Made by a program: the position numbers and the translations under genes
In this document: piece by piece, positions 33,828-39,146 of the stretch
Layout: every line of letters starts with the position of its first letter
Position numbering within the stretch: the stretch's first letter is position 1
The notes under the pieces: generated by a model
What the model saw: only the letters and a program-made list of their open reading frames with translations
Told to the model about the DNA's origin: nothing
The model's database searches: none
Origin: Candidatus Latescibacterota bacterium
GTDB lineage: Bacteria > Latescibacterota > UBA2968
Length of the DNA stretch: 64,000 nucleotides
Direction of reading: 5' to 3'
Assembly: GCA_021295695.1 (NCBI GenBank)
Contig: JAGWBW010000002.1
Span: 1-64,000 of the forward strand

Positions 33828-33851
33828 ATTCGTCTATTCGTCTATTCGTTT
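33828..33851. repeat. Octanucleotide tandem repeat at the 3' end of the ClpX-like gene
   Basis: Two exact copies of ATTCGTCT (33828-33835, 33836-33843) and a third imperfect copy (33844-33851) lie across the end of the ClpX-like gene. The last residues of that protein (RIDE) and its stop codon come from this repeat. Changes in copy number would alter the C-terminus. Confidence 0.85.
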
Positions 33852-35372
33852 ATTTTGTCCCCCTTGATAAAATGCTTTTACCAGGCTGTCGAGAAAGTTT
33901 TTTGGCTGGCGCACGGCTTCTGCGGTAATGACAAAAGATTGGTGTCCCAACAGCTTTAGCCCATGCCCGTAATCATCAAATAGATCCGGACACACTTCGT
34001 CAACTGTGCGATTTTCTTTTGCTGACTTTTCGGCAAGTGCGCCCAGTGCCTCATCGTCAAAGATGAGTGCGATGCCATAAGCGCTCTGGAATCGCTTGAC
34101 AAACGCGCTTGTGCCCCTCAAGACCAGCAATTGCTGAAGTGCGTGTTCGGGGTTTTCGATCACTTTTTTCGTGACGTGAAACGAATCGATATCTGTCGAT
34201 GGCAATGATTTTTCAAATTTTAGCAATGTGCGTTCACATACGCTGACCAGGCTTCGGGCACCGGTTTGTTCCAGGGCGGCTTGTTCAGCCAATAACCTGA
34301 GGGCGTCGTCGTCAAAAGTTAGATCAATGCCGTAGGCTTTGAAGTCGCGTTGCTTGCCCAAAATTACCGAACTGGTCTGGCTCTGCAAGATCGCGTAGAG
34401 ATCGTCAACGCTCAGGGGGGTTAAAACTGCTGTTACGGGTAACCGCCCCACAAACTCAGACTCGAAACCGTATTTGATCAGGTCTTCTGTTTTGACATAT
34501 TGCAAAAGTGCCGTGCTGTCCTGTTCAGGGGAGATGTCGCGCCCCGATTGAAACCCGACTTTGCCCAGGTTGAGACGCTTGCGCACGATGTCGTCGAGGC
34601 CGCTGAAGGCACCACTTACGATAAACAGGATATTGCGCGTGTTAATTTTTTGACGCTCTACTTTGCCACTGCGCTGAAATTGCATCATGGATTCCATTTG
34701 CGATGTGAGGTCGTGCGGTGCTTTGAGATCGACATCGGTTTCTTCCATGAGTTTGAGCAAGTTGCGCTGAACGCCAGTGCGCGATACATCCGGGCCGACC
34801 TGATTTGAACTCGATGCGATTTTGTCTATTTCGTCGATGTACACGATGCCGTATTGCGCCATTTCAATGCTGCCATCGGCTTCGTGTACGAGTTCTCGAA
34901 TCAGGTCTTCGACATCGCCGCCCACATATCCCGTTTCGCTGAATTTTGTCGCATCGCCCTTGACAAATGGAACGCCAATGCGCTGTGCAATTAACTTGAT
35001 CAAATACGTTTTGCCCACGCCCGTAGGTCCCATCAGGAGTATATTGTTTTTGATTTGTCCCACATTTTTGTGCGAAAATTCCGGGTCTTCGCGGTCGAGT
35101 TTCATGCGATTGTAATGCGTACATATCTTGGTGGCTAAGACTTCTTTTGCTTCGGCTTGCTGCACCACATACTCGTTTAAATAAGCCTCCAACTCTTCGG
35201 GTTTGAGGTCAAAATCTATGGTTGGTTCTGCGGGTTCTTCCATGTGGGGACCTTCCTGCATCCCGGCGGCTTCCCCTTCTGGAAAGACCACCTGGTTCCC
35301 GTATTTTTCTTCGAGGAAATTTTTGAGATCTTTTTGCAATTCTGCTGGAGAAAAAGGTTGTTTTTCAGACAT
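33834..35372 (-). CDS. Variant ClpX-like AAA+ unfoldase
   Basis: This 512-residue protein belongs to the ClpX group of AAA+ ATPases, which unfold proteins for ClpP. Walker A GPTGVGKT is at 115-122, pore loop GYVG at 148-151, Walker B VYIDEID at 177-183, and the arginine-finger region FVGRLP near 308. A VGF tripeptide near 272 sits where ClpX carries the IGF loop that docks ClpP. The N-terminal zinc-binding domain of ordinary ClpX is absent, replaced by an acidic linker. The C-terminal small domain appears twice, near 346-370 and 430-455 (both begin YGI followed by FDD). No clpP is near. It may be a specialised unfoldase. Confidence 0.88.
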   Translation of the reverse strand: MSEKQPFSPAELQKDLKNFLEEKYGNQVVFPEGEAAGMQEGPHMEEPAEPTIDFDLKPEELEAYLNEYVVQQAEAKEVLATKICTHYNRMKLDREDPEFSHKNVGQIKNNILLMGPTGVGKTYLIKLIAQRIGVPFVKGDATKFSETGYVGGDVEDLIRELVHEADGSIEMAQYGIVYIDEIDKIASSSNQVGPDVSRTGVQRNLLKLMEETDVDLKAPHDLTSQMESMMQFQRSGKVERQKINTRNILFIVSGAFSGLDDIVRKRLNLGKVGFQSGRDISPEQDSTALLQYVKTEDLIKYGFESEFVGRLPVTAVLTPLSVDDLYAILQSQTSSVILGKQRDFKAYGIDLTFDDDALRLLAEQAALEQTGARSLVSVCERTLLKFEKSLPSTDIDSFHVTKKVIENPEHALQQLLVLRGTSAFVKRFQSAYGIALIFDDEALGALAEKSAKENRTVDEVCPDLFDDYGHGLKLLGHQSFVITAEAVRQPKNFLDSLVKAFYQGGQNKRIDE

Positions 35373-35521
35373 AAAAAAAGCTCCAGGGTCAAGAGGCTGG
35401 GGACTGGGACAGCTCTCAGTTCATCCCAGAGTAGTAATAACTGAAAGCACCTAAACGATACCAATACTGCTTCTGACTGTCAAGTTATCATCAGAGCATA
35501 CTACGGAGATGAGACACAGGT

Positions 35522-37246
35522 ATGAATCTCAGCCCACTAACACTTCGCCGGTTATGCGATGAATTGCGGCCTCGGATTGACCATCGTCTGATCCGCGATG
35601 TGTTCCTCGTTGGTCGGCGCGATCTCTTTTTACATCTGGGCGATGCCGGGCATCTTTTGCTTTCTGTGCATCCGAGTCGAAGTTGTCTGATGCTGACCCA
35701 ACCGCCCATCGACGCCCAGCGCGTGCGCATCCCCTGGGCAGATCGCTATTTGCACGGTGCGGGTATTATTGGCATTGAGCATGTTCCCCACGAACGCATT
35801 GTGCATCTCGTGGTTCGCAAGCGCGATCGCATTGGCACTACTACCGATTCCCGCATTATATGCGAGTTGATCAACAGGTATGCCAATGTTATTCTCGTCG
35901 ATATGGGAACGGAACGAATTCTGGGGTCGCTCAGGTCTGTTCGCTCGCGCCAGAACCGCGTGCGGGAAATATCGCCGGGAAAGATCTATCAGCCGCCGCC
36001 AGAACTTGACCGCATGCCGCCGGAAAGCGCGAAGTTTTCCTTTTTGATCGATGTTCCCAAAGATATGCGCGCAAACGCGCTTGTACAAAATATTGCGGGG
36101 CTTGATCTTATATCTGCACGCGAATTGCTTCATATTGCTGGTTTTGTGGAAAAACGCCAACTTGCCGCCAGCGATCTCGCAAATTTTGCGGAAATTATTC
36201 GCGCCTTTTTTGCGAATCCGCCATTTTATGACGGAGGCCTGCGCGTGTGCGATGGGGATAATCGCAATGCGGTTTGTGCCCTTGATGTTCGGCATACACA
36301 GATAGAACAGATATATAGTACGCTCAGCGAAGCCATATTGGATGTTGCGGCGTGCGAAATCCAGGCTGAAGCACTTAAAGGGCGACAGAAAAATATTGAG
36401 AAGGATGTGAAAAATCGCCTGACTGTCTGCGAGCGGAAAATTGCCCGTATCCGTGCAGATATCGACGATGCGGGCAATGCAGATTTGTATGAAAACATGG
36501 GAAATGTGCTGATGTGCCATATCGCGCAGATTCCTCTGAATGTCGATACTATCACGCTGCCCGATCTGTTTAATCCATCCGGTGGGGATATGGTCATTCC
36601 CCTCAATCCGAGACGCACGGCTTCGGAAAATGCCAGTGCGTATCTCAAGCGAGCGCGAAAAGCGCGAAAAGGCGCACCTATTCTCGCCAAACGCCTCGTG
36701 ACCGCGCAGAGAGAGAAGGATGAAATCCAGCAGTACATAGATCGCATCAACGCTGTTCGTTCAGAGGCTGAGTTTGATGAGATACGGCAGGAACTGGAAG
36801 ACGCACGTCTGATCAAAGCTCCAAAAAAGAGACCGCAATCCAGGTCTAAACGTCAGCCTGGCGATATTCATCCCAGGCGGTATCGCACACAAGATGGTTG
36901 GCGCGTGCTGGTGGGGCGGAATAATGCGGAAAATGACAGGCTTACCAAAAGTTCAGGCCGCGACGATCTCTTTTTGCACGTTCACGGATGTCCGGGATCC
37001 CATGTGATTCTCAAACGCGATGGCAGAGCGGACCGCCCTTCTCGAAAAACGCTTGAAGAAGCGGCCAGTCTGGCGGCTTATTGGAGCAAAGCGCGAGGGT
37101 CCAAAAGTGTGCCGGTCAATTATACGGAGGTGCGCTATGTGCAAAAACCGCGCGGGGCACCGCCGGGCCTGGTCACGATTCGCAATGAAAAAACCGTGAT
37201 GGTCTCGCCTCGTGAACTCAGGCGTGAGGATGGGGAGTATTCGTAA
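35522..37246 (+). CDS. NFACT-family RqcH/FbpA-like protein (ribosome quality control)
   Basis: RqcH binds stalled 50S subunits and adds alanine tails to nascent chains. The order of domains matches: NFACT-N (LFLHLGDAGHLLLSVHPSR near 37-55), a helix-hairpin-helix, a long coiled coil at about 270-430, and the NFACT-R domain with DDLFLHVHGCPGSHVILK near residues 480-497. The C-terminal NFACT-C is not evident, so this 574-residue form matches shorter RqcH proteins. It is divergent from the ClpX-like gene, which might be related in function (protein quality control), but that is only context. Confidence 0.9.
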   Translation: MNLSPLTLRRLCDELRPRIDHRLIRDVFLVGRRDLFLHLGDAGHLLLSVHPSRSCLMLTQPPIDAQRVRIPWADRYLHGAGIIGIEHVPHERIVHLVVRKRDRIGTTTDSRIICELINRYANVILVDMGTERILGSLRSVRSRQNRVREISPGKIYQPPPELDRMPPESAKFSFLIDVPKDMRANALVQNIAGLDLISARELLHIAGFVEKRQLAASDLANFAEIIRAFFANPPFYDGGLRVCDGDNRNAVCALDVRHTQIEQIYSTLSEAILDVAACEIQAEALKGRQKNIEKDVKNRLTVCERKIARIRADIDDAGNADLYENMGNVLMCHIAQIPLNVDTITLPDLFNPSGGDMVIPLNPRRTASENASAYLKRARKARKGAPILAKRLVTAQREKDEIQQYIDRINAVRSEAEFDEIRQELEDARLIKAPKKRPQSRSKRQPGDIHPRRYRTQDGWRVLVGRNNAENDRLTKSSGRDDLFLHVHGCPGSHVILKRDGRADRPSRKTLEEAASLAAYWSKARGSKSVPVNYTEVRYVQKPRGAPPGLVTIRNEKTVMVSPRELRREDGEYS

Positions 37247-38073: not shown

Positions 38074-38955
38074 TTAGGCGAGACTGTGCCTGCGTTTGGC
38101 CGATGTTATGGTGTTGTACAAAAGCATGGTGATGGTCATGGGACCAACGCCGCCCGGGACGGGTGTGATGGCGCGCGCTTTTTTGCTGATAGCGGTGTAA
38201 TCGACATCGCCAACGAGGCGATAACCCGCTTTTTTGGATTTGTCGGGTACGCGGTTGACGCCAATGTCGATTACTACTGCGCCGTCTTGTACCATATCGG
38301 CAGTAATGGTTTTAGGATGCCCTGTCACAACGATGAGGATATCTGCCTGACGGGTGAAGTAGCCGAGGTCGTGTGTGCCGGTATGGCATAAGGTGACGGT
38401 GGCATTTGATGCTTTTTGCGAAAGGATGTTGGCGAGGGGGCGGCCCACCAGGGTGCTGCGCCCCACGATGACGACGTGTTTGCCCGCTACTTCAAAGTTG
38501 CCGCGTTTGAGGATTTGTTGAACGCCGTGCGGCGTGCAGGGCAAAAAGCCTTCTTCACCGCGCATGAGGCGACCGAGGTTGACCGGGTGGAGGCCATCTA
38601 CGTCTTTGTCGGGTGATATGCTGTTGAGGGCGGTTTGTTCGTCAAAGCCTTCGGGCAGGGGGAGTTGAACGAGGATGCCGTGAATGGTGGGGTCGTCGTT
38701 GAGTTGTTCGATGGTGTCGAGGAGGTCGGATTCGGGCTGGTCGGCTGTCAGGGTGTGTTCAATAGAATATATGCCGGTGTCTGCACATGCTTTGCGTTTG
38801 CCTTTGATGTAGGATATGGATGCTGGATCGTCGCCGACGAGTACGACCGCGAGGCCCGGGGTGAGGTTGTGATTTGTTTTGAGGTTTCTGACTTCTTTGG
38901 TCATTTCAGCGCGCATGGTTTTGGACAGGTTTGTGCCGTTTATAATTTTTGCCAT
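38074..38955 (-). CDS. folD: FolD, methylene-tetrahydrofolate dehydrogenase/cyclohydrolase
   Basis: FolD interconverts 5,10-methylene-THF and 10-formyl-THF in one-carbon metabolism. Catalytic-region SYIKGKRKACADTGI (with the key Lys) near residues 48-62, PLPEGFDEQ, GRSTLVGRPLANIL near 165, and the closing PGGVGPMTITMLL are all present. The length of 293 aa is usual. It stands alone on this strand; the 191-nt gap upstream (38956-39146) shows no clear promoter boxes. Confidence 0.95.
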   Translation of the reverse strand: MAKIINGTNLSKTMRAEMTKEVRNLKTNHNLTPGLAVVLVGDDPASISYIKGKRKACADTGIYSIEHTLTADQPESDLLDTIEQLNDDPTIHGILVQLPLPEGFDEQTALNSISPDKDVDGLHPVNLGRLMRGEEGFLPCTPHGVQQILKRGNFEVAGKHVVIVGRSTLVGRPLANILSQKASNATVTLCHTGTHDLGYFTRQADILIVVTGHPKTITADMVQDGAVVIDIGVNRVPDKSKKAGYRLVGDVDYTAISKKARAITPVPGGVGPMTITMLLYNTITSAKRRHSLA

Positions 38956-39146
38956 GGTTGCTTTCTCCCATGTGAATGCCCAAAATAAAAATACGCCCGG
39001 GCGATGTGATTGTTTTTAGCCCAGGCGGTCGGCGTGTGTTTATAGTCCAGTGCTTCCTCGTGGTTATTTCCACGTTTCCGCCAGTTACACTGGAAATTTC
39101 TGTAAATTTAAGGGATTTGGGCAGACAATCCAAATTTTTTTCTGGG

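Follow-up and report, generated by a model that had tools for sequence, protein, structure and literature searches.

A distinct ClpX-related unfoldase family with no zinc-binding domain and a doubled small domain

Canonical ClpX (NCBIfam TIGR00382 / NF003745) combines an AAA+ core, carrying the GYVG pore loop, the arginine finger and the sensor-2 GAR motif, with a zinc-binding domain, an RKH loop and a loop of the [IMVL]GF type. According to PMC7112951, the IGF loops of the E. coli protein make most of the ClpX-ClpP contacts, and a mutant in which RKH is changed to AAA does not support degradation of an ssrA substrate. HslU (TIGR00390) belongs to the same AAA+ branch. Myxococcus xanthus has, beside canonical ClpX, an extra copy named ClpX3 (MXAN_2743); as PMC11423568 describes it, ClpX3 has neither the N-terminal domain nor RKH and shares 43.54% identity with E. 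coli ClpX, and a mutant without it shows poor growth at high temperature. In mitochondria, PMC7077987 reports, ClpX activates ALAS by limited unfolding, an earlier case in which a ClpX unfoldase is linked to heme synthesis. These two systems were the nearest that we met in open-access PMC, where, among the matches listed and as far as their titles and the starts of their abstracts go, neither a ClpX family with a doubled domain nor a bacterial link between ClpX and heme is described. The family presented below is real and conserved, it is without a description among those matches, and its connection with heme is testable.

The protein that led us to this family is encoded in a window of 64,000 nucleotides from a Candidatus Latescibacterota bacterium (contig JAGWBW010000002.1). 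Its open reading frame lies on the minus strand at 33834-35372, stop codon included, starts with ATG and encodes 512 amino acids; the first-pass annotation had the end, 35372, right and the start, 33828, six bases too low. Pfam finds AAA_2 and ClpB_D2-small in the protein. The NCBIfam ClpX models match it well, though below both equivalog cut-offs (318.6 against 359 and 294 against 370.75), and the HslU model is far below its own (173 bits against 362.45). An AlphaFold model built on 51 aligned members has a mean pLDDT of 80.6, and its core superimposes on E. coli ClpX with Z 33.4 (310 residues, 2.1 A). The AAA+ large domain, residues 54-331 (34380-35213, minus strand, like all parts of the gene), matches AAA_2 at 6.6e-27 and has Walker A GPTGVGKT, pore loop GYVG, Walker B YIDE and arginine finger GRLP. 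It is followed by a first small domain, residues 332-409 (34146-34379; ClpB_D2-small, 1e-7), with the sensor-2 GAR at 371-373.

The first-pass annotation proposed that the zinc-binding domain had been lost and replaced by an acidic linker. The loss is borne out throughout the family: a CxxC pair before the core occurs in none of 167 family rows and in all 31 canonical ClpX rows that were compared with them. The linker is also there, at residues 28-53 (35214-35291), with pLDDT below 50 at 28-45; the acidic stretch, 28-54, has seven acidic residues and no basic one. It is, however, not the sole content of this region, as a helix is predicted before it at residues 9-27 (35292-35348), where the zinc-binding domain would be. 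Confidence in this helix is modest, the first three blocks of ten residues having pLDDT 47, 71 and 58. It has a recurrent loose pattern centred on (F/Y)Lxx(K/R)(Y/F)G, which 139 of the 167 family rows show within their first 110 residues; none of the 31 canonical rows shows it within the first 70. The RKH motif too is absent from every family row and present in every canonical row. In its place the window protein has a loop at residues 211-244 (34641-34742) with a predicted helix at 222-235; this loop is 34 residues long in 160 of the 167 rows, 11 more than the 23 found in 31 of 31 canonical proteins.

The catalytic and docking motifs are kept. Walker A, Walker B, GYVG, GR-P and sensor-2 GAR stand in 165 to 167 of the 167 rows, the exceptions being gaps and one changed letter: GYVG is in all rows, GPTGVGKT in 166 with a single letter different in the other, and GAR in 165 with gaps in the other two. 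The tripeptide VGF at residues 272-274 (34551-34559) is of the IGF type that docks to ClpP. Its counterpart [IMVL]GF is found in 166 rows, the remaining row having a gap, and G273 and F274 are invariant in one family alignment (A1). The earlier remark that a VGF at the expected loop would allow docking to ClpP is thus plausible, and we note that next to the loop, at 274-277, confidence in the model is among its lowest (pLDDT below 50).

Could the gene be a decaying or fused copy of ClpX, with a tail that is an accident? The window protein scores below both ClpX cut-offs, as such a copy might, and in three of the 167 rows fewer than 80 residues follow the first small domain (L186 is cut off by the end of its contig, L019 is split into two open reading frames and L198 has an in-frame stop). 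Yet the other 164 rows have at least 80 residues there, which is room for an extra domain, and the motifs of the active site are conserved in records whose titles name several phyla. Such conservation largely refutes decay, which we regard as very improbable.

The first-pass annotation saw the small-domain start YGI-x-FDD twice and took the C-terminal domain to be doubled. YGI begins at residues 347 and 432 of the window protein; since it also occurs at residue 174, the tripeptide alone means little, and the repeat was tested as a domain. When the profile of residues 412-512 was compared by hhalign with that of residues 331-420 (19 members), the probability was 97.9 and the score 70.4, against 11.7 to 15.0 for windows of 100 residues within 1-341 and about 12 for three column-reversed controls. 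With strict, non-overlapping bounds, the second small domain scores 73.1 against the first in short members (the Latescibacterota type) and 55.6 in long ones (the Desulfobacterota type), core controls reaching at most 16.6; against canonical ClpX small domains the values are 41.8 and 37.8. As the second copy resembles the first copy within the family more than it does canonical ClpX, the scores suggest a duplication inside the lineage of the family.

Predicted structure agrees with the profiles. In the AlphaFold model residues 350-432 and 435-511 share the order strand, helix, helix or helices, strand, short helix, long helix, and the extra domain folded alone has pLDDT 83. The 50 best PDB rows for this domain are all ClpX or HslU, both in Foldseek (best E 0.026, none below 0.001) and in the VIA structure search, where Z runs from 9.5 to 7.1, near the tool's own warning range. 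Taken alone these structural scores are modest; combined with the independent profile result they make a convincing case that the second repeat, residues 412-511 (33840-34139), resembles the first, as had been proposed. It has no sensor-2 GAR and has invariant positions of its own (D467, G471, L474, P490 and Y502 in 19 rows). Sequence searches with the extra domain alone gave little. Pfam reports no family for the window sequence, and two of 19 members touch ClpB_D2-small weakly; in a search of PDB sequence profiles ClpX and HslU appear at E 0.07-0.7, which is not significant, and the top match is a flagella protein (0.012), with DnaK chains mixed in.

The long, Desulfobacterota-type members have an insert, with a median of 84 amino acids, between the two small domains. 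A third full small domain was considered for this insert and rejected: 41-42 of its columns align with the second domain (hhalign probability about 90, score 33-34, core controls 9.7-18.9), which makes it at most a partial copy, and against the first small domain it scores 17.1-19.9, no better than the controls. One such long form is L037:5962-7722, in which the insert of about 84 amino acids may hold part of a third copy.

A scan of genome contigs yielded 160 candidate stretches, of which 135 were confirmed as relatives and 80 kept. Their record titles name Latescibacterota, Gemmatimonadota, Spirochaetes, Calditrichaeota, Cloacimonetes, Schekmanbacteria, Deltaproteobacteria/Desulfobacterota and others, and a cultured organism, Desulfatibacillum alkenivorans (L057), is among them. 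Within the phylum of the window, 46 of 60 genomes (the window genome included) have a match with E no higher than 1e-100, namely 44 of the 47 in its class and two of the 13 outside; two more genomes hold fragments. In samples drawn evenly from genomes at 90% completeness, the gene is present at E 1e-90 in 73 of 148 Desulfobacterota, the phylum of Desulfatibacillum, and in 13 of 80 genomes from the Spirochaetota, to which a Spirochaetia MAG belongs. In a tree of 103 rows, made by a quick search with SH-aLRT supports and no bootstrap, a branch with SH-aLRT 99 separates all 70 family rows, which sit on a long stem, from the others, the 31 canonical ClpX rows stay together (98), and the two HslU rows form the outgroup (99). 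The phylogeny proposed as a check thus places the doubled form in a clade separate from canonical ClpX and from HslU, whose small domain its extra domain also resembles. We place the window protein in a family of ClpX-related unfoldases that is distinct and branches deeply.

This family coexists with canonical ClpX. A second, weaker ClpX-type match was found in 17 of 18 member genomes examined, and 12 of 12 such loci that were retrieved show the CxxC pairs of a zinc finger and RKH. In four genomes of the same class (L147/L148, L149/L150, L151/L152 and L155/L156) there are two zinc-finger ClpX proteins plus the doubled-domain form. A search of the window genome for canonical clpX and clpP, advised earlier since the doubled form might have been the only ClpX, found both, in the order tig-clpP-clpX. 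This ClpX, of 415 amino acids, has a zinc finger and scores 639.4 and 629.7 on the NCBIfam ClpX models; it lies on contig C398 and is the sole match in the genome to the zinc-binding domain PF06689. The window protein is 39% identical to it over residues 57-409. The trigger-factor gene next to it is over the Pfam cut-off and has 161 against 180 on NCBIfam in the stretch examined.

An extra copy beside canonical ClpX, with neither N-terminal domain nor RKH, is also what M. xanthus has, and the family might consist of paralogues of the ClpX3 sort, serving heat tolerance. In the text of PMC11423568 that we consulted no doubled small domain is mentioned for ClpX3. The identity of ClpX3 to E. coli ClpX given above also speaks against this explanation, which we think unlikely.

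Several suggestions can be made regarding what the family does. The one that we prefer, with a probability of roughly 0.6, is that it is a second unfoldase that feeds non-ssrA clients to a shared ClpP, the parts that select clients having been exchanged. If correct, an ATP-driven hexameric ring would thread proteins through the GYVG pore, and the [IMVL]GF loops would hand them to the ordinary ClpP of the cell. Clients of the ssrA type would not be selected in the canonical way, since the protein has neither a zinc-binding domain nor an RKH loop. Other clients or adaptors might instead be selected or docked by the conserved helix at the N-terminus, the lengthened loop over the pore and the added small domain. 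The extra domain lacks the nucleotide-sensing arginine motif, and hence its most likely role would be that of a docking or ring-bracing module outside the ATP cycle. The earlier idea of different substrates gains indirect support from the loss of zinc finger and RKH and from the distinct gene neighbourhoods considered below. Since these neighbourhoods differ by clade, no single client follows from them. With its doubled small domain, a second lineage of ClpX would lend itself to testing which parts of ClpX choose clients, and would also probe the AAA+ small domain as a docking module.

A different peptidase, which had been offered as another option, is not favoured. No HslV in the window genome (93.8% complete) passes the cut-off, the best match having 23.5 bits against 157.75. 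In the 73 Desulfobacterota genomes with the ClpX-like gene, exactly one ClpP match was found in 69; G089 and G142 have two, G097 has one gene in two pieces and G079 has none. With one ClpP in most of these members, a shared ClpP is the simplest partner. We also considered a dedicated second ClpP for the Desulfobacterota and rejected it, since genomes with two ClpP matches stand on both sides, with the gene (G089, G097 in two pieces, G142) and without it (G129, G139, G181, G199, G204), and there is no association (n=148). Some points do speak against sharing. The extra domain, being C-terminal, may lie near the ClpP face and hinder docking, and the window genome also carries a second ClpP on contig C292. 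This second protein (L003:1411-2034, plus strand) is over one NCBIfam ClpP cut-off and has, by eye, Ser, His and Asp in the expected places. It may be a dedicated peptidase of the ClpX-like protein.

Gene neighbourhoods were surveyed downstream of the gene in all 73 Desulfobacterota members, over about 5.5 kb in most and less than 1 kb in three, with neighbours called by phmmer against proteins of L057, L036 and L047. Heme genes on the same strand follow in 42 loci (ahbC in 36, hemB in 26, ahbD in 17). A dnaJ-like gene follows in 18, in 17 cases no more than 35 bases from the stop codon. The two kinds of neighbour are never found together, and 13 loci have neither. The NCBIfam models for AhbC, porphobilinogen synthase and AhbD match the three heme genes of L057 over their cut-offs. 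The DnaJ-like protein encoded in L036 has DnaJ and DnaJ_C over the Pfam cut-offs but does not reach that of the NCBIfam DnaJ equivalog. Upstream genes in the named loci are mostly not common to members. In eight loci (for example L193, L207, L211, L228 and L232-L235) a small response-regulator-like open reading frame lies directly downstream of the ClpX-like gene, in all eight before hemB or ahbC; the L047 protein used as query for it has a Response_reg domain.

The heme genes bring to mind the mitochondrial system, and the family could be a remodeller that works without ClpP and partly unfolds specific enzymes, for example of the heme pathway, so that cofactors can be loaded or released, in the way that mitochondrial ClpX acts on ALAS. 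Besides the 42 downstream linkages, AhbC over the cut-off is found in 52 of the 73 Desulfobacterota genomes with the gene and in 19 of the 75 without it (Fisher p 3e-8, a value that ignores relatedness), and in 35 of those 52 ahbC is downstream of the ClpX-like gene. Such a remodeller would give the same sequence features as an unfoldase serving ClpP if the docking loop were kept for other reasons. Its near-universal retention nevertheless counts against this suggestion, as do the 19 genomes that have AhbC without the ClpX-like gene, and the presence of ahbC at another place in the genome (600 bits or more) in ten of the 13 members with neither neighbour and in six of the 18 linked to dnaJ. 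In the tree, moreover, all 21 heme-linked rows fall in one clade of 29 (SH-aLRT 97) and all eight dnaJ-linked rows in another of 11 (SH-aLRT 83), so that each linkage may have had a single origin. The window genome itself has no AhbC over the cut-off, its best match having 53 bits against 650. Altogether we hold a ClpP-independent remodeller to be doubtful as an explanation for the family.

A reading confined to the Desulfobacterota is also possible, though we offer it tentatively. These members might be dedicated unfoldases of the tetrapyrrole pathway that activate, reload or remove AhbC, HemB and AhbD, enzymes of the siroheme-dependent heme route, with the added C-terminal domain (there possibly with its partial third copy) as the module that docks the clients. 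They would then be a separately evolved bacterial counterpart of mitochondrial ClpX acting on ALAS, from which they would differ in pathway step and enzymes; the Desulfobacterota link is known from genomes alone. The adjacency of heme genes in many relatives among sulfate reducers suggests a specialised client set and a specialised role in one clade; it cannot be the function of the whole family. The linkage makes it testable whether heme control by ClpX of the mitochondrial type exists in bacteria. At the window locus heme is not involved.

The window gene has a different neighbour. Across a divergent intergenic region of 149 bases (35373-35521) lies, on the plus strand at 35522-37246, an NFACT gene of the RqcH/EfbA type encoding 574 amino acids; the protein is over the Pfam cut-off (NFACT_N 236 bits, NFACT-R_1 45.8 bits) and below cut-off for the NCBIfam models EfbA (236.9 bits) and archaeal RqcH (86 bits). 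An NFACT gene adjoins the ClpX-like gene in 11 of 11 close named relatives (L007-L015, L024 and L031, with 38% identity or more) and, cut by the end of the locus, in L097-L106. Four of the latter (L097, L098, L105 and L106) score identically to named loci and probably come from the same genomes, which leaves six further cases. The remaining 27 loci that were examined, several of them with short flanks, did not show the neighbour. Bacterial RqcH adds alanine tails that ClpXP recognises, according to PMC8012679. Both the NFACT neighbour of the window and the DnaJ-like neighbour in 18 of 73 Desulfobacterota would fit protein quality control. Elsewhere in the window, a ZMP/ZTP riboswitch above the gathering score lies at 39012-39098 on the minus strand, 56 bases upstream of folD (38074-38955, minus strand), which is an expected pairing.
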